A stretch of 40,765 nucleotides of DNA from Cellulomonas cellasea (GTDB taxonomy: Bacteria; Actinomycetota; Actinomycetes; Actinomycetales; Cellulomonadaceae): NCBI RefSeq assembly GCF_006538745.1, contig NZ_BJLR01000027.1:1-40765 (forward strand), in the 5' to 3' direction. The notes under the pieces are model-generated. The model was not told where the DNA came from, did not search any database, and was given only the letters and a program-made list of their open reading frames with translations. Numbering within the stretch: position 1 is the first letter of the stretch; each line of letters begins with the position of its first letter. Below, one piece after another: positions 16,724 to 26,971 of this stretch. Both the position numbers and the translations under genes were made by a program.

Positions 16724-18265
16724 TCACGCGGTGACGGGGGCGGACGCCTCGCGGGCGGGCACCGGCTCCGTCTGTGCAGCGGCGTCCGCCGCGTCCGCCT
16801 CGACGGGCAGCCCGTCCGCGAGCGCCCAGGCCTCCTCCGTCACGGTCCGCGGCCAGACGAGCGCCGCGACGACGTACGCGAGCAGCGACGCGACGGCCCC
16901 GTAGAACGTGGGCCACCCGTCGAACGAGGCGTCGACCAGGGTGTTCGGCACGTGCAGCACGTCGTTCGGCACGCCGTACATGGTCGGCGTGAGCACGAAC
17001 AGGGTGATGCGCACCGTGAGGCCGACGACGAGCGCCGCGACCGCCGCCCGGGTGCCGCCCCGCTTCCAGAACATCCCGAGCAGGAACGGCACGACGAGCC
17101 CCGCGAGCATGAGGTCGAACGCGAGCGTGAGCAGGATCCCGGTCTGCGCGACCCGCAGCGCGACGAGCACGCCCGCGATCACGACCGGCACCATCGCGAC
17201 GCGCGTCCAGCGCAGCAGCGGGTCGGGGCCGGCGTCGACGACGCGGCGCACCCCGAGGATGTTGCGCACGGCGACGGCCGAGGTCGCGAGGATCGCGCCG
17301 GACGCGGTGGAGAACGACGCGGCGACGATGCCCGAGAGGACGAGGATCGTCAGTCCGGTCGGGGCGTGGTCGTCGAGCAGCTGGAACAGCACGGGCCCGT
17401 CGTCCATCGACAGCCCGAGCACGGACGCGGCGCTCAGGGCGACGAGCGCGTACGCGACACCGACGACGGCCGTCCCCGCGGCGCCGGTCAGGCACGCGCG
17501 GCGCGCGACCTCGGGGTTCTTCGCGGCGAAGATCCGCTGCATGAAGTCGATCGCGACGATGTCGCCGATGCCGAGCGAGACGAGCGTGGCCCAGTTGATC
17601 GGCGCGCCCTGGTCGGTCGAGGAGAGCTGCCCGAGGTCGAACGGGCCCATGCCCTCGGGGATCTCGAAGCCGATCGTCGCGCCGACCCACCACAGCAGCG
17701 CGACGGTCGCGACCACGGTGATCGCGATCTGGATCGCGGCGGTGTAGGCGTCGGAGAACATCCCGCCGCCGACCGTGTAGACGAGCACGAGGGCGACCGC
17801 GAGCAGCACGCCGAGCGTGTAGTCGAGCCCGAGGAAGCGCTCGAGCAGGTACCCGCAGGCCACGAGGTTGCCGGCCATGAGGATCGCGAAGGCGAAGATC
17901 ATGAGGACCGACGACGCGACCTCGACGCCGCGGCCGTAGCGCAGGCGGTAGAAGTCGGCGAGCGTGAACAGGCCCATGCGGTTCATGGGCCGGGCGAGGA
18001 AGAGCCCGGTCAGCAGCAGGCAGATCGCGAGGCCGAGGGCGAGCGAGGCACCCGACCAGAAGCCGAACGAGGCGGTGAGGTCGGTGTTGCCGACCGTCGC
18101 GTTGGAGTCGACGGCGGCCGCCATGAGCGACGCCGCGACGAGCGGGGTCCCGAGCCGGCGGCCCGCGACGAGGTAGTTGGCGCTGTCGCCGTCGACCTTG
18201 CGGGCGACGACGATCCCGACGAGGACGACTGCGAGGACGCTGAGCCCGACACCGGCGATGATCAT
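16724..18265 (-). CDS. Sodium:solute symporter (SSS family), possible urea/guanidine transporter
   Basis: A 513-residue polytopic membrane protein with about 13 helices, of the SSS family. Family features include YLVAGRRLGTPL, FTLADFYRLRYG, VYTVGGGMFSDAYTAAIQ and ASFSTASGAILATSA. The ATG at 18265 follows GGAGG; the frame stays open further upstream but without a start of similar quality. The SSS family includes the urea transporter DUR3. The gene shares an almost identical operator palindrome with the carboxylase operon and is divergent from the TetR gene, so urea or guanidine is the likely cargo. That is inferred from context; no substrate residues were identified. Confidence 0.88.
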   Translation of the reverse strand: MIIAGVGLSVLAVVLVGIVVARKVDGDSANYLVAGRRLGTPLVAASLMAAAVDSNATVGNTDLTASFGFWSGASLALGLAICLLLTGLFLARPMNRMGLFTLADFYRLRYGRGVEVASSVLMIFAFAILMAGNLVACGYLLERFLGLDYTLGVLLAVALVLVYTVGGGMFSDAYTAAIQIAITVVATVALLWWVGATIGFEIPEGMGPFDLGQLSSTDQGAPINWATLVSLGIGDIVAIDFMQRIFAAKNPEVARRACLTGAAGTAVVGVAYALVALSAASVLGLSMDDGPVLFQLLDDHAPTGLTILVLSGIVAASFSTASGAILATSAVAVRNILGVRRVVDAGPDPLLRWTRVAMVPVVIAGVLVALRVAQTGILLTLAFDLMLAGLVVPFLLGMFWKRGGTRAAVAALVVGLTVRITLFVLTPTMYGVPNDVLHVPNTLVDASFDGWPTFYGAVASLLAYVVAALVWPRTVTEEAWALADGLPVEADAADAAAQTEPVPAREASAPVTA

Positions 18266-18286
18266 GGGTCCTCCGAGGGACGTGTG

Positions 18287-18302
18287 CCTGTCAAGTGACA
18301 GG
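18287..18302. promoter_or_regulatory. Palindromic operator in front of the symporter gene
   Basis: CCTGTCA, 2 bp, TGACAGG: a perfect 7-bp inverted repeat 21 bp upstream of the symporter ATG. The right half continues GAAC, exactly as in the second copy at 19329-19350. It is the probable binding site of the TetR regulator encoded between the two copies. Confidence 0.75.
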
Positions 18303-18421
18303 AACATTGACCACCCGGGCCGTGTCGGCGGTGCTGCCGCCACGAAACAAGCGTGTTAACGCCGCTCCCCGCGCCTCGCCCACCCCCGCCGCCGGCGCAC
18401 GGGGCCCCCGACGGCGGCACC

Positions 18422-18427
18422 TAGCAT
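18422..18427 (+). promoter_or_regulatory. -10 element of a leaderless promoter (TAGCAT)
   Basis: TAGCAT is followed by 7 bp and GTG 18435. It contains the in-frame ATG 18426, which is therefore unlikely to be the TetR start codon. Confidence 0.55.
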
Positions 18428-18434
18428 GGCGACC

Positions 18435-19151
18435 GTGGCACCAGCACCGGCCAAGGGCCGTCCCCGCGTGGGCGTCTCGGCCCACCCCGACCTCCCGGCG
18501 CCCGAGCAGATCCTGCGCGCCGCCGCGCAGCTCTTCGTCGACTGCGGGTACGACGCGACGTCGACGCGCGCGATCGCGGCGGCGGTCGGGATCCGGCAGG
18601 CGTCGCTCTACTACCACTTCGCGAGCAAGGCCGACATCCTCGCGGAGCTGCTGAGCCGGACGGTCACGCCGTCGCTCGACGCGGCGGAGCGGCTGCTCGC
18701 CGACGGGGGCGACCCCGCGGTCCGGCTGCACGAGCTCGTCACCGTCGACTGCCGCCTGCTGCTCGACGCCCCCGCGAACGTCGGCGCGCTGTACCTGCTG
18801 CCCGAGGTGCGGGCCGAGCGCTTCGCCGACTTCCGCGCCCAGCGCGCCCGGCTGCGCGACGCGTACGGCACGCTCGTCGAGCAGGCGGCGGCACCGGGGG
18901 CGATGCTCGGGCCGCTCGACGTGCTGACGGACGTCGTGTTCGGGCTCGTCGAGAGCGTGATCGGCGTGCGGGGGCGCGAGGCGGGCGGCACGGAGGGGGA
19001 TGGCGGCGGCGCGGACGGCGGGGCGCGACCGGTCCTCGACAGCGGCGTCCTGGTCACGACGGTGGCGCGCTCGGCGCTGCGGGTGCTCGGCTGGGACGAG
19101 GCCGGGCTGGTGCGCATCGAGCGCGCGTCGGACGCCCGCCGCACGGCCTGA
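18435..19151 (+). CDS. TetR-family transcriptional regulator of the urea/guanidine locus
   Basis: About 238 residues. The N-terminal helix-turn-helix is typical: AAAQLFVDCGYDATSTRAIAAAVGIRQASLYYHFASKADIL, here with recognition-helix core RQASLYYHF. The C-terminal ligand domain is less conserved and has a Gly/Asp-rich loop near residue 195. The GTG at 18435 is preferred to the ATG at 18426, because TAGCAT overlaps that ATG and gives a leaderless start at the GTG. The gene lies between the symporter and the carboxylase operon, both of which carry a CCTGTCA palindrome at their promoters, so it is most likely their repressor, released by urea, guanidine or an intermediate. Confidence 0.9.
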   Translation: MAPAPAKGRPRVGVSAHPDLPAPEQILRAAAQLFVDCGYDATSTRAIAAAVGIRQASLYYHFASKADILAELLSRTVTPSLDAAERLLADGGDPAVRLHELVTVDCRLLLDAPANVGALYLLPEVRAERFADFRAQRARLRDAYGTLVEQAAAPGAMLGPLDVLTDVVFGLVESVIGVRGREAGGTEGDGGGADGGARPVLDSGVLVTTVARSALRVLGWDEAGLVRIERASDARRTA

Positions 19152-19274: not shown

Positions 19275-19312
19275 TTAACGCACCGGACACACGGCGGTGA
19301 CCCCGCGGGAAC
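19275..19312 (+). promoter_or_regulatory. GlnR box (four half-sites)
   Basis: TTAAC-N6-GACAC-N6-GTGAC-N6-GGAAC, at 19275, 19286, 19297 and 19308. The actinobacterial GlnR consensus is gTnAC-N6-GaAAC-N6-gTnAC-N6-GaAAC. GTGAC fits fully, TTAAC fits the TnAC core, and GACAC and GGAAC each miss one base. All three spacers are exactly 6 bp. The box ends 55 bp before the first gene of the carboxylase operon, in an activator position. It implies control by nitrogen status. Confidence 0.7.
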
Positions 19313-19328: not shown

Positions 19329-19350
19329 GTTCCTGTCAGCCGACAGGAAC
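19329..19350. promoter_or_regulatory. Palindromic operator in front of the carboxylase operon
   Basis: GTTCCTGTC, AGCC, GACAGGAAC: a perfect 9-bp inverted repeat 16 bp upstream of the ATG at 19367. It shares CCTGTCA-NN-YGACAGGAAC with the site before the symporter. It lies between the GlnR box and the ribosome binding site, a position where repressor would block transcription. Confidence 0.78.
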
Positions 19351-19366: not shown

Positions 19367-20236
19367 ATGACGGCATCCAGCACGTCCACGACCGCGGGAG
19401 CGCGTGAGCACGCCCGCGCCCAGGAGGGCGCCGCCGCCGGGACGGTGCGCACCCGGCCGGTCGTGCCCGCGAGCGCATGGCCGACCCCGCCGGACGGCGT
19501 GTCCCCCGAGGACCTGGTGCACGCCGAGACGGTCGCGGGCGGTGGGTACACGCACCTGGCGGTCGCCCGGGGCACGCACGTGCGGCTCACCGACCTCGAC
19601 GGGGACGCGTGCGCGCACGTGCTCGCGTTCCACGCCGAGCAGCCGTGGGAGCGCCTCAACGTCGCCGACACGGTCAAGGTGCAGTGGCAGGTGTACCTGA
19701 CCACCGGGCACCTGCTGCTCTCGGACCAGGGGCGCGCGCTCGCGAGCGTCGTCGCGGACACCTCCGGGCACCACGACACCCTGTTCGGCACCACGACGCG
19801 GGCCCGCAACGAGGCCCGGTACGGCGACGGCGCGGCGCACGGCCCCTCCCCCGCCGGGCGCGAGCTGTTCGCGCTCGCCGGCGCGAAGCACGACCTCACG
19901 CGGCGCGACCTGCCGCCGAGCATCTCGTTCTTCCAGGGCGTGCGGGTCGACGACGACGGCGCCCCGCAGCACCGCGGCTCGGCCGGCGCCGGGGCCGCCG
20001 TCACGCTGGTCGCGGAGCTGCCGCTGATCCTCCTGGTCGCCAACACCGCGCACCCGCTCGACCCGCGCGAGCGCTTCACGTGCACGCCGCTCGAGGTGCT
20101 CGCGTGGCGCGGGGACCCGACCGCGCCGTCCGACCCGCGCTGGGACGCGACCCCCGAGGGCCGGCGCGCGCTCGACAGGACCGCGGCCCACGTCGCCGCC
20201 CGCACCGCTCGCCCGACGGCAGGAGCCACCCGATGA
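19367..20236 (+). CDS. Urea carboxylase-associated protein 1 (DUF1989), carboxyguanidine deiminase subunit
   Basis: A 289-residue DUF1989 protein, the first gene of the operon, with a GGGGAGG ribosome binding site. The family core is visible: HVRLTDLDGDACAHVLAF, NVADTVKVQWQVYLTTGHLLLSD, and GHHDTLFG. The N-terminal 35 residues and the C-terminal tail are low-complexity. Proteins of this family beside a urea/guanidine carboxylase have been shown in other bacteria to form a two-subunit carboxyguanidine deiminase that yields allophanate. The stop overlaps the next start by 4 bp (ATGA), which fits subunits made in equal amounts. Whether this operon handles guanidine, urea or both is not settled by the sequence. 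Confidence 0.88.
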   Translation: MTASSTSTTAGAREHARAQEGAAAGTVRTRPVVPASAWPTPPDGVSPEDLVHAETVAGGGYTHLAVARGTHVRLTDLDGDACAHVLAFHAEQPWERLNVADTVKVQWQVYLTTGHLLLSDQGRALASVVADTSGHHDTLFGTTTRARNEARYGDGAAHGPSPAGRELFALAGAKHDLTRRDLPPSISFFQGVRVDDDGAPQHRGSAGAGAAVTLVAELPLILLVANTAHPLDPRERFTCTPLEVLAWRGDPTAPSDPRWDATPEGRRALDRTAAHVAARTARPTAGATR

Positions 20237-20982
20237 CCACCACCGACACCCCCGCCCTGCCGCCCGCCGCACGGGGGGCCGCCGCACCGACGGGCACCGC
20301 ACCGGCAGGTACCGCCCCCGAAGGCACCGGACCGAGCGCTCCCGCGGCGCTGCCGGCGGCAGCGACCGGCGCCGTCGTGCTCGACGCCGTCGTCCCCGCA
20401 CGCGCGCCGTGGTCTGCGGTCGTACGGCGCGGGCAGCTCCTGACGATCATCGACCTCGGCGGTAACCAGGCCGTCGACTTCCTCGCCTTCGACGCGCACG
20501 ACACGTCGCTGCGGTACTCGGCGCCCGACACGATCCAGGCGCAGGGTTCGGTGTTCCTCACGACGGGCAGCGTGCTCCGGGACTGCGAGCACGCGCCGAT
20601 GATGACGCTCGTCGCCGACGACTGCGGGCGCCACGACACGCTCGGGGGTGCGTGCTCGAAGGAGTCGAACACGCTGCGCTACGGCCACCACACCGCAGGC
20701 CAGCACGCGTGCGTCGAGAACTTCCTCGCCGAGGGCGGCCGGCACGGGCTCGGCAAGCGGGACCTCGTCTCGAACATCAACTGGTACATGAACGTGCCGG
20801 TCGACCCGGACGGCGCGCTCGGCATCGTCGACGGCATCTCGGCGCCGGGCCTGAGCCTCACGCTCCGCGCGGAGAAGGACGTGCTCGTCGTCGTCTCCAA
20901 CTGCCCGCAGGTCAACAACCCGTGCAACGGCTTCGACCCGACGCCGGTCCGCATGGTCGTGACCGACCCGAGCGAGGGCTGA
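20233..20982 (+). CDS. Urea carboxylase-associated protein 2 (DUF1989), carboxyguanidine deiminase subunit
   Basis: A 249-residue DUF1989 protein. The first 45 residues are a Pro/Ala/Gly/Thr-rich extension. The core has IIDLGGNQAVDFLAFDA, TIQAQGSVFLTTGSVL, CGRHDTLGGACSKES, GQHACVENF, and NWYMNVPVDPDG; the His and Cys residues could bind a metal. It is more conserved than its partner and overlaps it by 4 bp. The carboxylase start follows 3 bp after its stop. Role as for the partner: the second subunit of the deiminase acting on carboxyguanidine. Confidence 0.9.
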   Translation: MTTTDTPALPPAARGAAAPTGTAPAGTAPEGTGPSAPAALPAAATGAVVLDAVVPARAPWSAVVRRGQLLTIIDLGGNQAVDFLAFDAHDTSLRYSAPDTIQAQGSVFLTTGSVLRDCEHAPMMTLVADDCGRHDTLGGACSKESNTLRYGHHTAGQHACVENFLAEGGRHGLGKRDLVSNINWYMNVPVDPDGALGIVDGISAPGLSLTLRAEKDVLVVVSNCPQVNNPCNGFDPTPVRMVVTDPSEG

Positions 20983-20985
20983 CCC

Positions 20986-23900
20986 ATGACGTTCGACACG
21001 CTGCTCGTCGCGAACCGCGGCGAGATCGCCGTCCGCATCCTGCGCACCGCACGCGAGCTCGGGCTGCGCACGGTCGCGGTGTACTCCGAGGCCGACGCGG
21101 GCGCGGCGCACACGCACCTGGCCGACGAGGCCGTGCTGCTGGGCCCCGCCCCCGCCGCGCAGAGCTACCTGCGCGCGGACCGGATCGTCGAAGCGGCGCT
21201 CGCGACGGGCGCCGGCGCGATCCACCCCGGCTACGGCTTCCTCTCGGAGAACGCGGGCTTCGCGCGCGCGGCGGAGGCCGCCGGGATCGCGTTCGTCGGC
21301 CCGCGCCCCGAGCACCTCGAGCTGTTCGGGTCCAAGCACACCGCGCGCGACGCGGCCCGCGCCGTCGGCGTCCCGATGCTCGCGGGGACGGGTCTGCTCG
21401 GGACGCTCGACGAGGCGCTCGCCGCGGCCGAGACCATCGGCTGGCCGGTCATGCTCAAGGCGACGGCGGGCGGCGGCGGGATCGGCATGCGCGCGTGCCA
21501 CGGGCCGGACGAGCTGACGGACGCCTGGGAGGCCGTGCGCCGCGTCGCGGGCGCGAGCTTCGGAACCGCCGGGGTCTTCCTCGAGCGGCTCATCACCGCG
21601 GCTCGGCACGTCGAGGTGCAGGCGTTCGGGGACGGGCTCGGCACGGTCGTGACGCTCGGGGACCGCGACTGCTCGCTCCAGCGCCGCAACCAGAAGGTGT
21701 GCGAGGAGGCGCCGGCGCCGGCGCTCCCGGACCACGTCCGCAGCACGATCGCGACGGCGGCGCACGACCTGTGCGCCTCGGTCGCGTACCGCTCGGCGGG
21801 CACGGTCGAGTACGTCTACGACGCCGAGCGCGAGGAGGTCGCGTTCCTCGAGGTCAACACCCGCCTGCAGGTCGAGCACCCGGTGACCGAGGCGGTGTAC
21901 GGGGTCGACCTCGTCGCGTGGATGCTGCGGCTCGCGCAGGGCGACACGTCGGTGGTCGGGACCCCGCTCGTCGCGCGCGGCCACGCGGTCGAGGCGCGCG
22001 TCTACGCCGAGAACCCCGACCACGACCACGTGCCGAGCGCCGGGACGGTCACCTCCGTGCGGACGCCGGCGGGCGTGCGGGTCGACACCTGGGTCGAGGC
22101 CGGCAGCGAGGTCAGCACGCACTACGACCCCCTGCTCGCCAAGGTCGTCGTCGCGGGCGACGACCGTGCGGCGGCCTGGGCGGCGCTCGGCGAGGCCCTG
22201 GCCGGGACCCGGGTCGACGGCGTCGCGACCAACGTCGGCCTGCTGCGCTCGATCGCCCGCGACGGCGACGTGCTCGCCGCGACGCACACGACCGCGACGC
22301 TCGCGCACGTGCGCGACGCCTCGCCGCGCGTCCAGGTCCTGCGCGCCGGGATGCTCACGACCGTGCAGGACTGGCCCGGGCGCACCGGGTACTGGCACGT
22401 CGGCATCCCGCCGTCGGGCCCGATGGACGACCTGTCGTTCCGGCTCGGCAACCGCGCGCTCGGCAACGCGGAGGGCGCGCCGGGGCTCGAGTGCACGATG
22501 ACGGGACCGTCGCTGCGCTTCGCGACCCCGGCGACCGTGCTGGTCGCGGGCGCGCCGACGCCCGTGACGCTCGACGGCGAGCCCGTCGCACAGTGGGAAC
22601 CCGTGGAGGTGCCCGCGGGCGGCGTGCTCGACGTCGGCACGGCGACCGCGGGGATGCGCGCGTACGTGCTGGTCCGCGGCGGGCTCGACGTCCCCGAGGT
22701 GCTCGGTTCCGCGGCGACGTTCGACCTCGGGGAGATCGGCGGCGCGACCGGCCGGCCGCTGCGGCCCGGGGACCTGCTGGCCCTCGGGACCCCCGACGCC
22801 GCGGCGCCCGCACCCGCCGGCGTTCCGGCGGACGGTCGCCCGGCGGTCACCGACGCGTGGCAGATCGGCGCGCTCGAGGGCCCTCACGCGGCCCCGGAGT
22901 TCTTCACGCCCGACGACGTGACCGCGTTCTACGCCGCGCGCTGGTCCGTGCACTTCAACTCGGCGCGCACCGGCGTCCGGCTCGTCGGGCCCAAGCCGGT
23001 GTGGGCACGGCCCGACGGCGGCGAGGCCGGCCTGCACCCGTCGAACATCCACGACACCCCGTACGCGGTCGGCGCGGTCGACTACACCGGCGACGTCCCG
23101 ATCCTGCTGGGCCCCGACGGACCGAGCCTCGGCGGCTTCACGTGCCCCGCGACGGTCGCCGTGGGCCAGCTGTGGAAGCTCGGGCAGCTCCGTCCGGGCG
23201 ACACCGTGCAGTTCGTGCCGGTCGACGAGCCGGGGGCCGAGGTCCTGCGGCAGGCGCCGCTGACCGTCCCGGTGTCCTCCCGCGCGGCGCACCACGACGG
23301 CGGCGTGCTCGGGCGGCTCGACGCCTCGACGGACCGCCCGGCGGTGACCTACCGACGCTCGGGCGACGACAACCTCCTGATCGAGTACGGGCCGATGCAG
23401 CTCGACCTCGCGACCCGCCTGCGGGTGCACGCGCTCGCCGAGCGCATCGCCGCCGACGGGCGGGCGGGCATCGTCGACCTGACGCCCGGGATCCGCTCGC
23501 TCCAGGTGCACCTCGACCCCGACGTCCTCCCGCTGCGCACCATGCTCGACCTCGTCCAGGAGGCCGAGGACGAGCTGCCGCCGACGAGCGACCTCGTCGT
23601 GCCGTCGCGCACCGTGCACCTCCCGCTCAGCTGGGACGACCCCGCGACGCGCGAGGCGACCGAGCGGTACATGGCGGGCGTGCGCGACGACGCCCCGTGG
23701 TGCCCGTGGAACATCGAGTTCATCCGCCGCATCAACGGCCTGGGCTCGGTCGACGACGTGCACCGCACCGTCTTCGACGCGGAGTACCTCGTGCTCGGGC
23801 TCGGCGACGTGTACCTCGGCGCGCCCGTCGCGACGCCGCTCGACCCGCGGCACCGGCTCGTCACCACGAAGTACAACCCGGCGCGGACCTGGACCCCGCA

Positions 23901-24564
23901 GAACGCCGTGGGGATCGGCGGGGCCTACCTGTGCATCTACGGCATGGAGGGCCCGGGCGGCTACCAGTTCGTCGGGCGCACCGTGCAGGTCTGGGACACG
24001 CACCGCCAGCGCGGGCCGTTCGAGCCGGGCACGCCGTGGCTGCTGCGGTTCTTCGACCGGATCCGGTGGTTCCCCGTCGAGGCTGACGAGCTGCTCGACA
24101 TGCGCGCCGACATGGCCGCCGGGCGGCTCGACGTGCGGATCGACGAGGGCGAGTTCGTGCTCGCGGACCACGAGCGCTTCCTGCGCGACGAGGCCGGCTC
24201 GATCGCGGAGTTCCAGGCGCGGCAGTCGGCGGCGTTCGCGGACGAGCGGGCCGCGTGGGAGGCCGCCGGGGAGTTCGACCCGCGGCCCGAGCCGGCGCTC
24301 GCGGTGGCTCCCCAGGCGGCGGCCCTGCCCCCGGGCTGCGCGAGCGTCGACGCGCCGTTCGTGGGCACGGTGTTCCGCGTCGACGTCGCGCCGGGCGACC
24401 GGGTCGAGGCCGGCCAGGTCCTGCTCGCGCTCGAGGCGATGAAGATGGAGGCACCCGTGACGGCGCGCGCCGCCGGGGTCGTCGTCGACGTCGCCGTGGC
24501 CCCCGGCGACCAGGTCGGTCCGGGCCAGGCGCTCGTGGTCGTCCGCGAGGAGGTGGCCGCCTGA
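20986..24564 (+). CDS. Urea/guanidine carboxylase, biotin-dependent
   Basis: A 1192-residue multidomain enzyme that uses ATP, bicarbonate and biotin to carboxylate urea or guanidine. Residues 1-445 are a biotin carboxylase (LLVANRGEIAVRI, KATAGGGGIGMR, FLEVNTRLQVEHPVTE). About 450-770 is the AHS2/KipA part of the carboxyltransferase (TTVQDWPGRTGYWHVGIP). About 785-1075 is the AHS1/KipI part (GDDNLLIEYG). The C-terminus is a biotinyl domain with EAMKME, the biotinylated Lys being K1153. There is no fused allophanate hydrolase, unlike yeast urea amidolyase, and no separate one follows. The two DUF1989 genes upstream suggest guanidine as substrate, but urea cannot be excluded. Confidence 0.93.
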   Translation: MTFDTLLVANRGEIAVRILRTARELGLRTVAVYSEADAGAAHTHLADEAVLLGPAPAAQSYLRADRIVEAALATGAGAIHPGYGFLSENAGFARAAEAAGIAFVGPRPEHLELFGSKHTARDAARAVGVPMLAGTGLLGTLDEALAAAETIGWPVMLKATAGGGGIGMRACHGPDELTDAWEAVRRVAGASFGTAGVFLERLITAARHVEVQAFGDGLGTVVTLGDRDCSLQRRNQKVCEEAPAPALPDHVRSTIATAAHDLCASVAYRSAGTVEYVYDAEREEVAFLEVNTRLQVEHPVTEAVYGVDLVAWMLRLAQGDTSVVGTPLVARGHAVEARVYAENPDHDHVPSAGTVTSVRTPAGVRVDTWVEAGSEVSTHYDPLLAKVVVAGDDRAAAWAALGEALAGTRVDGVATNVGLLRSIARDGDVLAATHTTATLAHVRDASPRVQVLRAGMLTTVQDWPGRTGYWHVGIPPSGPMDDLSFRLGNRALGNAEGAPGLECTMTGPSLRFATPATVLVAGAPTPVTLDGEPVAQWEPVEVPAGGVLDVGTATAGMRAYVLVRGGLDVPEVLGSAATFDLGEIGGATGRPLRPGDLLALGTPDAAAPAPAGVPADGRPAVTDAWQIGALEGPHAAPEFFTPDDVTAFYAARWSVHFNSARTGVRLVGPKPVWARPDGGEAGLHPSNIHDTPYAVGAVDYTGDVPILLGPDGPSLGGFTCPATVAVGQLWKLGQLRPGDTVQFVPVDEPGAEVLRQAPLTVPVSSRAAHHDGGVLGRLDASTDRPAVTYRRSGDDNLLIEYGPMQLDLATRLRVHALAERIAADGRAGIVDLTPGIRSLQVHLDPDVLPLRTMLDLVQEAEDELPPTSDLVVPSRTVHLPLSWDDPATREATERYMAGVRDDAPWCPWNIEFIRRINGLGSVDDVHRTVFDAEYLVLGLGDVYLGAPVATPLDPRHRLVTTKYNPARTWTPQNAVGIGGAYLCIYGMEGPGGYQFVGRTVQVWDTHRQRGPFEPGTPWLLRFFDRIRWFPVEADELLDMRADMAAGRLDVRIDEGEFVLADHERFLRDEAGSIAEFQARQSAAFADERAAWEAAGEFDPRPEPALAVAPQAAALPPGCASVDAPFVGTVFRVDVAPGDRVEAGQVLLALEAMKMEAPVTARAAGVVVDVAVAPGDQVGPGQALVVVREEVAA

Positions 24565-24650
24565 CACCCGCGGATATTCCCCGGCGGCGACGTGAGGATC
24601 CGCACGCGACCGCCAGCCGATCATCCCCGGCGCCTCCCGCGCGCGTGTGG

Positions 24651-24656
24651 TCGAAT
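24651..24656 (+). promoter_or_regulatory. -10-like TCGAAT before the amino-acid ABC operon
   Basis: TCGAAT is followed by exactly 6 bp and ATG 24663. It matches TATAAT at four of six positions. No ribosome binding site precedes this ATG, so a leaderless start is likely. The 98-bp gap after the carboxylase gene shows only a weak GCGGAT/ATCCGC symmetry. Confidence 0.4.
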
Positions 24657-24662
24657 CGGACC

Positions 24663-25493
24663 ATGCCCACGAACGCCCTGATCCGGACCGCCGTTGTCGC
24701 CACCGCCGTCGCCCTGTCCCTCGCCGCGTGCTCGTCCGGCGAGCCCGAGGCCGGCTCCGGGACGAGCCCCGCGACCGGTGGCGGGGACGACTCGCTGCAG
24801 CAGGTCCTCGACTCGGGGACCCTGACGGTCGGCACCGAGGGCACGTACCGCCCGTTCTCGTTCCACGAGGGAGGGTCGGGCGACCTCACCGGGTTCGACG
24901 TCGAGGTCGCGCGCGCCGTCGGCGAGGAGATGGGCGTCGAGGTCGAGTTCGAGGAGACGCAGTGGGACGCGATCTTCGCGGGCCTCGAGGCCGGGCGGTT
25001 CGACGTCATCGCGAATCAGGTCTCGATCACCCCGGAGCGCGAGGAGTCCTACACCTTCTCGACGCCGTACACGGTGTCGACCGGGGTGATCGTCGTGCCG
25101 GAGGGCGAGACCGGCATCACGTCGTTCGAGGATCTCGCGGGCAAGCGCACCGCGCAGTCGCTCACGAGCAACTGGCACACGCTCGCGGAGGAGTCCGGCG
25201 CCACGATCGAGGCCGTCGAGGGCTGGGCGCAGGCCGCTGCGCTCGTCCAGCAGGGCCGGGTCGACGCCACGATCAACGACAAGCTCACGTTCCTCGACGC
25301 GCAGCAGGAGGGCGGGGCCGAGGGCCTCGCGATCGCGGTCGAGACCGAGGAGTCCTCGCAAAGCGCGTTCGCACTGCCGAAGGGGGCCGACGCGCTCAAG
25401 GAGCGGATCGACGAGGCGCTCGCGACGCTCACGGAGGACGGCACGCTCGCCGAGATCTCCGAGAAGTACTTCGGCGAGGACGTGACGCGCTGA
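24663..25493 (+). CDS. Amino-acid ABC transporter binding lipoprotein (cystine-like)
   Basis: A 276-residue family-3 solute-binding lipoprotein. The lipobox is LAAC with Cys23. Family motifs are GTEGTYRPFSFHEG, LTGFDVEVARAVGEEMG, WDAIFAGLEAGRFDVIANQVSITPER and YTFSTPY. The segment SLTSNWHTLAEESGA with GRVDATINDKLTFLD is most like cystine-binding proteins, although other polar amino acids are possible. It is the first gene of an SBP-permease-ATPase operon. It follows the carboxylase operon by 98 bp, but nothing shows that it transports urea or guanidine. Confidence 0.92.
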   Translation: MPTNALIRTAVVATAVALSLAACSSGEPEAGSGTSPATGGGDDSLQQVLDSGTLTVGTEGTYRPFSFHEGGSGDLTGFDVEVARAVGEEMGVEVEFEETQWDAIFAGLEAGRFDVIANQVSITPEREESYTFSTPYTVSTGVIVVPEGETGITSFEDLAGKRTAQSLTSNWHTLAEESGATIEAVEGWAQAAALVQQGRVDATINDKLTFLDAQQEGGAEGLAIAVETEESSQSAFALPKGADALKERIDEALATLTEDGTLAEISEKYFGEDVTR

Positions 25494-25527
25494 CGGCGCG
25501 GCCCGGACCCGCCGCGGGGCGCGCGCC

Positions 25528-26193
25528 GTGAACGAGACGTGGGAGCTGTTCGCGTCGTCGTTCTGGCCGATCGCCTCGGGCGCGATCACGGGCACGATCC
25601 CGCTCGCGATCGTGTCGTTCGTGATCGGGCTCGTGCTCGCGCTGGTCCTGGCCCTCATGCGGCTGTCCCGGCACGCCTGGGCCGCCGGGACCGCCCGGGC
25701 GTACATCTCGCTCGTGCGCGGGACGCCGCTGCTCGTCCAGCTCTTCCTTGTGTTCTTCGGGCTGCCGTCGGTCGGCGTCGTGATCGACCCCTGGCCCAGC
25801 GCGATCGCCGCGTTCTCGATCAACGTGGGCGGCTACGCGGCAGAGGTCATCCGCGCCGCGATCCTCTCGGTGCCCAAGGGCCAGTGGGAGGCGGCGTACA
25901 TGATCGGGATGTCCCGGCGGCTCGCGCTGCGCCGGATCATCCTGCCGCAGGCGGCGCGCGTGTCCGTGCCGCCGCTCTCCAACACGTTCATCAGCCTCGT
26001 CAAGGACACGTCGCTCGCCTCGGTCGTCCTCGTCACCGAGCTGTTCCGCAACGCGCAGGAGATCGCGGCGTTCAGCGGGGAGTTCATGCTCGTGTACCTC
26101 GAGGCGGCCCTCGTCTACTGGGTCGTCTGCCTCGTGCTGTCCGCCGGGCAGACGCGGATCGAGACGCGATTGGACCGCTATGTCGCCCACTGA
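25528..26193 (+). CDS. Amino-acid ABC transporter permease
   Basis: A 221-residue HisMQ-type permease with about five membrane helices. The sequence AYISLVRGTPLLVQLFLVFFGLP and the EAA loop (GMSRRLALRRIILPQAAR) are typical, followed by SLVKDTSLASVV. It would form a homodimeric channel and couple with the ATPase. The GTG start at 25528 lies 34 bp after the binding-protein stop. The last 14 bp overlap the ATPase gene. Confidence 0.92.
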   Translation: MNETWELFASSFWPIASGAITGTIPLAIVSFVIGLVLALVLALMRLSRHAWAAGTARAYISLVRGTPLLVQLFLVFFGLPSVGVVIDPWPSAIAAFSINVGGYAAEVIRAAILSVPKGQWEAAYMIGMSRRLALRRIILPQAARVSVPPLSNTFISLVKDTSLASVVLVTELFRNAQEIAAFSGEFMLVYLEAALVYWVVCLVLSAGQTRIETRLDRYVAH

Positions 26194-26971
26194 CGGCGCC
26201 ACCTCGTCCGGGGTCGGCGAGCCGCTGCTGACCGTGCGCGGCCTGCGCAAGAGCTTCGGGGACAACACGGTGCTCCGGTCCGTCGACCTCACGGTCGAGC
26301 GCGGGCGCGTGCTCGCGCTCATCGGCCCGTCCGGGTCGGGCAAGACGACCGCGCTGCGCTGCCTCAACGGCCTCGAGACCGCCGACGGCGGCACCATCAC
26401 CGTCGGCGACGACGTCCGCCTCGACTTCGCCAGCGCTCCCTCGCCGCGTGCGCTCGCGACGCTGCGCGACTGCTCGGCGATGGTCTTCCAGCACTACAAC
26501 CTCTTCCCGCACAAGACGGTCCTCGAGAACGTGCTCGAGGGCCCTGTTGTCGTACAGCGGCGCCCGGTCGCCGACGTGACGCGCGAGGCGCTCGGGCTGC
26601 TCGAGCGTGTCGGGCTCTCCGAGAAGCGCGACGCCTACCCGTTCGAGCTGTCCGGCGGGCAGCAGCAGCGCGTCGGCATCGTCCGCGCGCTGGCCCTGCG
26701 TCCACGCCTCCTGCTGTTCGACGAGCCGACGTCCGCGCTCGACCCCGAGCTCGTCGGCGACGTGCTCGGACTCATCAAGGAGCTCGCGCTCGAGGGCTGG
26801 ACCATGGTCATCGTCACGCACGAGCTCCAGTTCGCCCGGGAGGTCGCCCACGAGGTCGCGTTCGTCGACGGCGGCACCATCGTCGAGCACGGCGACCCGG
26901 CGCAGGTGCTGCGGGCCCCGCAGCACGAGCGCACGCAGCAGTTCCTGCGCCGGCTGTTGCACCCCTTCTGA
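26180..26971 (+). CDS. Amino-acid ABC transporter ATP-binding protein
   Basis: A 263-residue ABC ATPase of the polar amino-acid family. The Walker A motif is GPSGSGKTT (49-57), the Q-loop is in VFQHYNLFPHKTVLENV, the signature is LSGGQQQR (157-164), Walker B is LLLFDEPTSALDP (177-189), and the switch His is in THELQF. The residues around 80-95 form a short insertion (DFASAPSPR) seen in several relatives. It powers uptake through the permease encoded just upstream, which it overlaps by 14 bp. Confidence 0.94.
   Translation: MSPTDGATSSGVGEPLLTVRGLRKSFGDNTVLRSVDLTVERGRVLALIGPSGSGKTTALRCLNGLETADGGTITVGDDVRLDFASAPSPRALATLRDCSAMVFQHYNLFPHKTVLENVLEGPVVVQRRPVADVTREALGLLERVGLSEKRDAYPFELSGGQQQRVGIVRALALRPRLLLFDEPTSALDPELVGDVLGLIKELALEGWTMVIVTHELQFAREVAHEVAFVDGGTIVEHGDPAQVLRAPQHERTQQFLRRLLHPF

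Follow-up and report, generated by a model that had tools for sequence, protein, structure and literature searches.

A predicted GlnR box paired with an AmtR-type operator ahead of a putative guanidine carboxylase operon in Cellulomonas cellasea

Introduction

The closest described counterpart of the locus reported here is the msmeg_2184-2189 operon of Mycobacterium smegmatis, on which GlnR and the repressor AmtR act together. According to the accessible part of PMC4222082, nitrogen control of msmeg_2184 is lost without glnR (for the other genes, the data are given as not shown), signals are stronger without amtR, and nitrogen control is intact without AmtR. The same text describes gel shifts in which AmtR binds the msmeg_2184 promoter. 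It adds that urea and amino acids, tested at 0.5-5 mM, leave AmtR binding unaffected, and its authors liken AmtR to LacI acting beside a global regulator. A GlnR ChIP-seq peak (peak 17) and EMSA at the msmeg_2184 promoter are described in the available portion of PMC3662644. A preliminary description of the Cellulomonas locus, made from the sequence alone, had presented such dual control as novel; because GlnR activation and AmtR repression of an operon of this kind were shown in M. smegmatis in 2013 (PMC4222082 and PMC3662644, in the parts available), this claim has to be given up. The combination of box and operator is itself already known, having been described for urea genes in related bacteria.

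The sites recognized by both regulators have been defined in Streptomyces. The GlnR consensus of S. coelicolor (Tiffert 2008) is quoted in the accessible text of PMC10704036 as gTnAc-n6-GaAAc-n6-GtnAC-n6-GAAAc, and four GlnR molecules bind head to tail in the transcription complex. For AmtRsav of S. avermitilis (Chen 2013), the available part of PMC8864220 gives the consensus TAtCTGTCa-n2-cGACAGATAT; this text states that a small effector of AmtR has yet to be identified, and mentions the proposal that AmtR of C. glutamicum is released by adenylylated GlnK. On the enzyme side, an Asp at the position of K. lactis residue 1330 marks guanidine carboxylase, as opposed to Asn in urea carboxylase, and Asp 1584 is required (PMC11410670, accessible part). 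Our literature search found no paper joining "guanidine carboxylase" with "GlnR" and none joining "AmtR" with "guanidine".

Results and discussion

The window, that is, the whole stretch of 40,765 nucleotides of Cellulomonas cellasea DNA that was analysed (contig NZ_BJLR01000027.1), contains on the forward strand, at 19275-19312, the four half-sites TTAAC (19275-19279), GACAC (19286-19290), GTGAC (19297-19301) and GGAAC (19308-19312), with spacers of 6 bp each and thus in 11-bp steps. The preliminary description had read them as the a1-b1-a2-b2 architecture of a GlnR box, located ahead of a carboxylase operon and beside the operator of a TetR-family regulator; its letters and coordinates are exact, and profile matches place UAAP1, UAAP2 and the carboxylase downstream. 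Compared with GTNAC-n6-GAAAC-n6-GTNAC-n6-GAAAC, the site has 3 mismatches among 18 defined letters, one each in half-sites 1, 2 and 4, and the third half-site, GTGAC, has none. The a-b-a-b order and the 11-bp phase are those of the S. coelicolor box, from which the window site differs by three single mismatches (PMC10704036, accessible part). Judged from the consensus scan, a weight matrix and the position kept in relatives, 19275-19312 is very probably a GlnR binding site.

Three of the four half-sites being one base off the consensus is what might be expected of a chance match in a GC-rich promoter, and several lines of evidence speak against this explanation. At up to 3 mismatches, the strict GlnR consensus has two matches in the 4,734,929-base genome, namely, 19275-19312 and a site at C30:58922-58959 that ends 61 bp before the ORF of a type I glutamine synthetase (glnA; TIGR00653, 673.5 bits, over the cut-off). 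The glnA gene is a classic GlnR target. A reversed-pattern control gave 0 matches in the same genome at up to 3 mismatches. At up to 2 mismatches, the consensus has no match in the own genome, so that 19275-19312 is a good rather than a perfect or strictest-class site; at this stringency, at least one match was present in 147 of 220 family genomes, and the control pattern matched in one genome among those listed (G074). For a weight matrix, we took 29 family loci from outside the genus and excised the site of each at a constant 17 bp from the AmtR operator, deliberately omitting the two own-genus loci as well as the 16 loci that have no operator. This matrix retains some dependence on the motif, because the 17-bp distance was first found with a GlnR score. 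With it, 19275-19312 scored 25.1 and ranked first on both strands of the window, followed by 15.96 (at the symporter promoter discussed below) and 13.05. Among 60 dinucleotide-shuffled versions of the window, the highest value was 13.90 and none reached 25.1. A matrix scan against shuffled sequence was the check named beforehand in the preliminary description, and the box came through it. Together with the conserved position in relatives, the genome-wide scan, the matrix and the shuffles leave a chance origin with a negligible probability, and we reject it.

The genome also appears to supply the cognate regulators. Structure searches with a GlnR-like ORF on contig C7 matched PDB entries 8hih (2.6e-86), 8hig (5.8e-84) and 4o1h, "Transcription regulator GlnR" (7e-27). 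The first two are labelled only as response regulators in the search output; we take them to be GlnR structures. By these matches, a GlnR-like protein is encoded in the genome. Just upstream of the operon, a gene at 18426-19151 (forward strand) encodes a TetR-family protein of 241 aa (PF00440), for which the closest solved structures are 5e57, "Transcription regulator AmtR" (3.3e-38), 5dxz (5.8e-29) and 5mqq, "AmtR protein" (2.1e-27); the first structure outside the AmtR group, 2iai, follows at 7.6e-15. With solved AmtR proteins as its closest kin, this TetR_N protein is AmtR-like by sequence comparison.

A palindrome that fits the AmtR consensus, TTCCTGTC-AGCC-GACAGGAA, lies at 19330-19349, separated by 17 bp from the GlnR box upstream and likewise by 17 bp from the ATG of UAAP1 downstream. 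It is the sole place in the genome that matches TTYCTGTCNNNNGACAGRAA with 0 mismatches, and a second AmtR-type operator at 18285-18304, TTCCTGTC-ACTT-GACAGGCA when read on the reverse strand, is the sole place with 1 mismatch, so that both own-genome matches at this level are within the window. Both carry a palindrome of the CTGTC-n4-GACAG type and match the quoted AmtR consensus in the core; in 19330-19349, the 12 core consensus letters (CTGTCA and CGACAG) agree with those of AmtRsav (PMC8864220, accessible part). Three further places in the genome match TTYCTGTCNNNNGACAGRAA with two mismatches and may be chance occurrences, given that the control pattern gives one such place. Among AmtR-like sites elsewhere in the genome, a third AmtR-like operator, at G000:C17:129558-129577, departs from the pattern by 2 mismatches and keeps its inner palindrome intact.

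The second operator belongs to a promoter that would serve a divergent gene on the reverse strand (16724-18265), which encodes a sodium symporter of the SSF family (PF00474); its likely true start is the ATG at 18265, with GGAGG ahead of it, and its closest relatives of solved structure, choline and glucose symporters, are distant. A weaker GlnR-like box, TTAAC/GTTTC/GGCAG/GACAC, is located on the reverse strand at 18322-18359. Its middle half-sites, GTTTC and GGCAG, are poor, and its matrix score of 15.96, the second highest in the window, compares with a maximum of 13.90 among the 60 shuffles. In the leftward direction, the operator (18304-18285) comes 17 bp after the box (18359-18322), a spacing identical to that of the operon promoter. 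This arrangement is kept in relatives: a second operator, at a distance of 792-1161 bp, is present in 21 of the 31 AmtR-type family loci; 15 of the 21 have a TTAAC box 17 bp from that operator, and in four loci (L029-L031 and L033) a TTAAC box flanks the operator at its opposite side. The box and operator at 18285-18359 are absent from the preliminary description.

We then surveyed the box-operator pair upstream of UAAP1 in related genomes. The family search yielded a UAAP1 match in 51 of 221 genomes; four weak or partial matches (G031, G060, G084 and G092) were left out, and the count covers the remaining 47 loci. An operator matching at least 12 of 16 letters is present in 31 of the 47, and the best box precedes it by 17 bp in 19 loci and by 18 bp in 8, lying elsewhere in 4. 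In the other 16 family loci (L034-L049), no site near UAAP1 scores up to the operator threshold, and a GlnR-like box without an operator is present in L046 (41.5/44) and L049 (36/44). The box of L046 is strong and reads GTAACACCGTCGTCACACGACGGTGACCGGGGCGGAAC, so that control by GlnR only may exist in some relatives. Upstream of UAAP1 in L034 and L048, we noticed by eye another palindrome, approximately ACCTATC-n4-GAAAGGT, which may be a variant AmtR-like operator.

The same pair was found in a scan of named relatives, namely, the best 80 of 578, which include Cellulomonas, Microbispora, Nocardioides, Kineosporia, Streptomyces, Amycolatopsis, Rhodococcus, Kocuria and other genera. Three loci with less than 200 bp upstream (L081, L127 and L140) were left out, and among the remaining 77 of these best 80, an operator is present in 69 and lacking in 8. 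A GlnR-like box of at least 33/44, a threshold set after sight of the scores, ends 10-30 bp before the operator in 61 of these 69 loci and is not reached in 8, a count to be read with the caveat that many of the 80 loci are from Streptomyces and hence not independent. Dinucleotide shuffles, 200 for each operator-bearing locus, reached the box threshold in 0.19% of cases. Outside Cellulomonas, the box is present in 53 of 61 operator-bearing loci of the best 80. The gap between box and operator differs between groups: among the 61 loci of the best 80, it is 24 bp in 32, 15 in 10, 13 in 8 and 17 in 7, with the rarer values of 18 bp in 2 and 26 and 27 bp in 1 each. In the Streptomyces loci, this distance is mostly 24 or 13 bp, compared with 17 bp in the window. 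A homolog of the window AmtR is encoded in 72 of the best 80 loci.

The genes behind the operon promoter are all on the forward strand. UAAP1 (DUF1989; 19367-20236; TIGR03425, 7.1e-87; PF09347) would by family be one subunit of a carboxyguanidine deiminase, and UAAP2 (DUF1989; 20233-20982; TIGR03424, 4e-98, over the cut-off) the other. They are followed by a biotin-dependent guanidine/urea carboxylase of 1192 aa (20986-24564; TIGR02712, 1744.6 bits) and by an ABC transporter (24255-26971) consisting of a family-3 binding protein (PF00497; ORF 24255-25493, with the true start further in), a permease (PF00528; 25528-26193) and an ATPase (PF00005; 26180-26971). The predicted deiminase pair is thus within the operon, and allophanate hydrolase is encoded elsewhere in the genome, outside the window and on a contig other than that of the operon (G000:C18:106278-107966; TIGR02713, over the cut-off). 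Control of this hydrolase gene by GlnR or AmtR was considered and rejected, the best GlnR and operator scores within 1.5 kb on each side being 28/44 and 10/16, respectively (locus L184).

As to the substrate, Asp699 of the window carboxylase aligns opposite N1330 of 5i8i and is therefore of the guanidine type, and Asp941, in the motif GDVYLG opposite GDVFLG of 5i8i, corresponds to K. lactis D1584, a position that was counted by hand. Among the best 80 of 578 relatives, the residue could be aligned in 78 enzymes (the exceptions being L091 and L153), and each of the 78 has Asp at the 1330 equivalent, as would be expected if UAAP1 marks the pathway, given that these loci were picked by UAAP1. A contrast is provided by the family of Rhodococcus rhodnii, in which 88 of 121 genomes matched and the residue was read in 50 loci (L190-L219 and L220-L239). 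Asp occupies position 1330 in 31 of 31 loci in which the carboxylase has UAAP1 and UAAP2 as neighbours (11 full-length and 20 short enzymes) versus Asn in 19 of 19 without UAAP within 1.5 kb on either side; these counts are not a census, as 30 of the loci came from searches and 20 were short-type loci selected from a list. The signature residues thus tilt the guanidine/urea ambiguity of the window carboxylase toward guanidine and disfavour urea as the substrate, and we infer that guanidine is used by the enzymes of the operon.

Guanidine carboxylase operons controlled by riboswitches likewise combine the deiminase pair and ABC genes with a carboxylase that has Asp at both 1330 and 1584 (PMC12186494 and PMC11410670, in the parts available). 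Unlike these operons, the window contains no gathering-level Rfam match and thus no guanidine riboswitch by this measure. In 20 tested loci from the best 80 of 578 relatives, the only matches were SRP RNA and tRNA, and the 16 family loci L034-L049 have no Rfam riboswitch either. We therefore reject riboswitch control for the window and for these 20 and 16 loci; protein regulators seem to take the place of the riboswitch here.

We consider it highly probable that the motif is a GlnR box through which GlnR activates the operon under nitrogen limitation, that an AmtR-like repressor blocks the operon from the palindrome, that the same pair acts at the symporter, and that the genes serve guanidine assimilation. 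Under nitrogen limitation, GlnR would occupy the four half-sites head to tail and activate the UAAP1-UAAP2-carboxylase promoter. The AmtR-like repressor encoded just upstream would bind the palindrome 17 bp downstream of the box, at or near the core promoter, and keep transcription off until it is released by a second signal; the divergent symporter would be governed by the same two proteins. Guanidine would then be carboxylated, deiminated and, by the enzyme encoded elsewhere, processed through allophanate hydrolysis. Binding at the window sites, relief of AmtR and the AND logic are inferred here. Assuming that the last half-site of the box overlaps the -35 region, the operator would overlap the core promoter, the -10 element of which could not be placed from the alignment.

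The 11-bp repeats in the window are of a kind that is also read by other OmpR-type regulators, and the genome has 18 PF00486 matches, so that PhoP, MtrA or AfsQ1 rather than GlnR could be their main reader. The GTTTACC/GTTCACC units seen in some relatives resemble PhoP repeats. PhoP does compete with GlnR at overlapping sites and AfsQ1 binds the same nitrogen promoters (PMC10704036, accessible part); however, the sole other strict match in the genome precedes glnA, although PhoP sites overlap there too, GlnR binding has been shown at the M. smegmatis operon (PMC3662644, accessible part), and nitrogen scavenging is the likely role of the window operon, all of which makes a main reader other than GlnR improbable. 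A more serious contender is that GlnR and AmtR compete and both report nitrogen status, with no gate for the substrate. AmtR is said to compete with GlnR in the available text of PMC10704036, the reference list of PMC5137332 includes a title with "AmtR/GlnR competitive binding mechanism" (Petridis 2016), and the proposed release by GlnK in C. glutamicum (PMC8864220) and the indifference of M. smegmatis AmtR to urea and amino acids (PMC4222082), both from partial texts, point the same way. In the window, however, the box and the operator do not overlap, with 17 bp between them, which makes two separate inputs possible, and the retention of nitrogen control in M. smegmatis without AmtR (PMC4222082, accessible part) fits a separate second input. 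We therefore regard pure competition as rather unlikely and favour activation by GlnR with a separate, AmtR-like input. A pathway compound, for example, guanidine, that lifts AmtR would make this arrangement the AND gate put forward in the preliminary description, in which substrate is present and nitrogen scarce; GlnK or nitrogen status would not.

The layout of the locus differs from those in the described systems. In M. smegmatis, the operon shares GlnR-dependent nitrogen control, repression by a TetR-type AmtR, and two reading frames of unknown function with a "urea carboxylase" (PMC4222082 and PMC3662644, in part), but amtR is located away from the operon and a permease comes first (PMC4222082, in part). 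In the window, by contrast, amtR stands between two target promoters, each with a GlnR-like box and an AmtR operator. In S. avermitilis, amtR is co-localised with the carboxylase (PMC4222082, in part), although, unlike in the window, it is transcribed in the opposite direction. What is new here is that, in Cellulomonas-type bacteria, the pair precedes the enzymes as well as a transporter at a near-constant spacing, and that the UAAP-linked enzymes have the guanidine signature in every locus where the residue was readable (for the named relatives, among the best 80 of 578). These two features offer a concrete candidate for the missing ligand of AmtR, which may be guanidine, and the "urea" regulon of the literature may need a new name. 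More tentatively, as a reading that falls somewhat short of probable, actinobacterial AmtR at large could be a sensor of the guanidine pathway, with the small "urea" regulon devoted to guanidine assimilation and the box and operator doing the work of riboswitches; the ligand search would then have failed because urea and amino acids were tried, and not guanidine, carboxyguanidine or allophanate.

The short-type carboxylases of the R. rhodnii family (L220-L239) lack the biotin carboxylase part, their match to the window enzyme covering only approximately residues 417-1124, and have Asp at the 1330 equivalent in 20 of 20 cases. An AmtR-like operator (at least 12/16) is present in 13 of the 20 short-type loci (8 kb each) versus 1 of the 30 full-type loci (approximately 6.6 kb each), and 12 of the 13 have it 1.58-1.77 kb upstream of UAAP1. 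Five such loci were checked, and in each the ORF of 505-515 aa between the operator and UAAP1 encodes an amino acid permease (PF13520). A divergent amtR homolog is present in 15 of the 20 short-type loci. The GlnR-like boxes beside the short-type operators are mixed, with best scores within 75 bp upstream ranging from 17 to 38.5 of 44. The resulting order, permease-UAAP1-UAAP2-carboxylase, is that of permease-urf1-urf2-carboxylase in M. smegmatis (PMC4222082, accessible part). In the R. rhodnii family, the carboxylase of loci with this order is short and has no biotin carboxylase domain.
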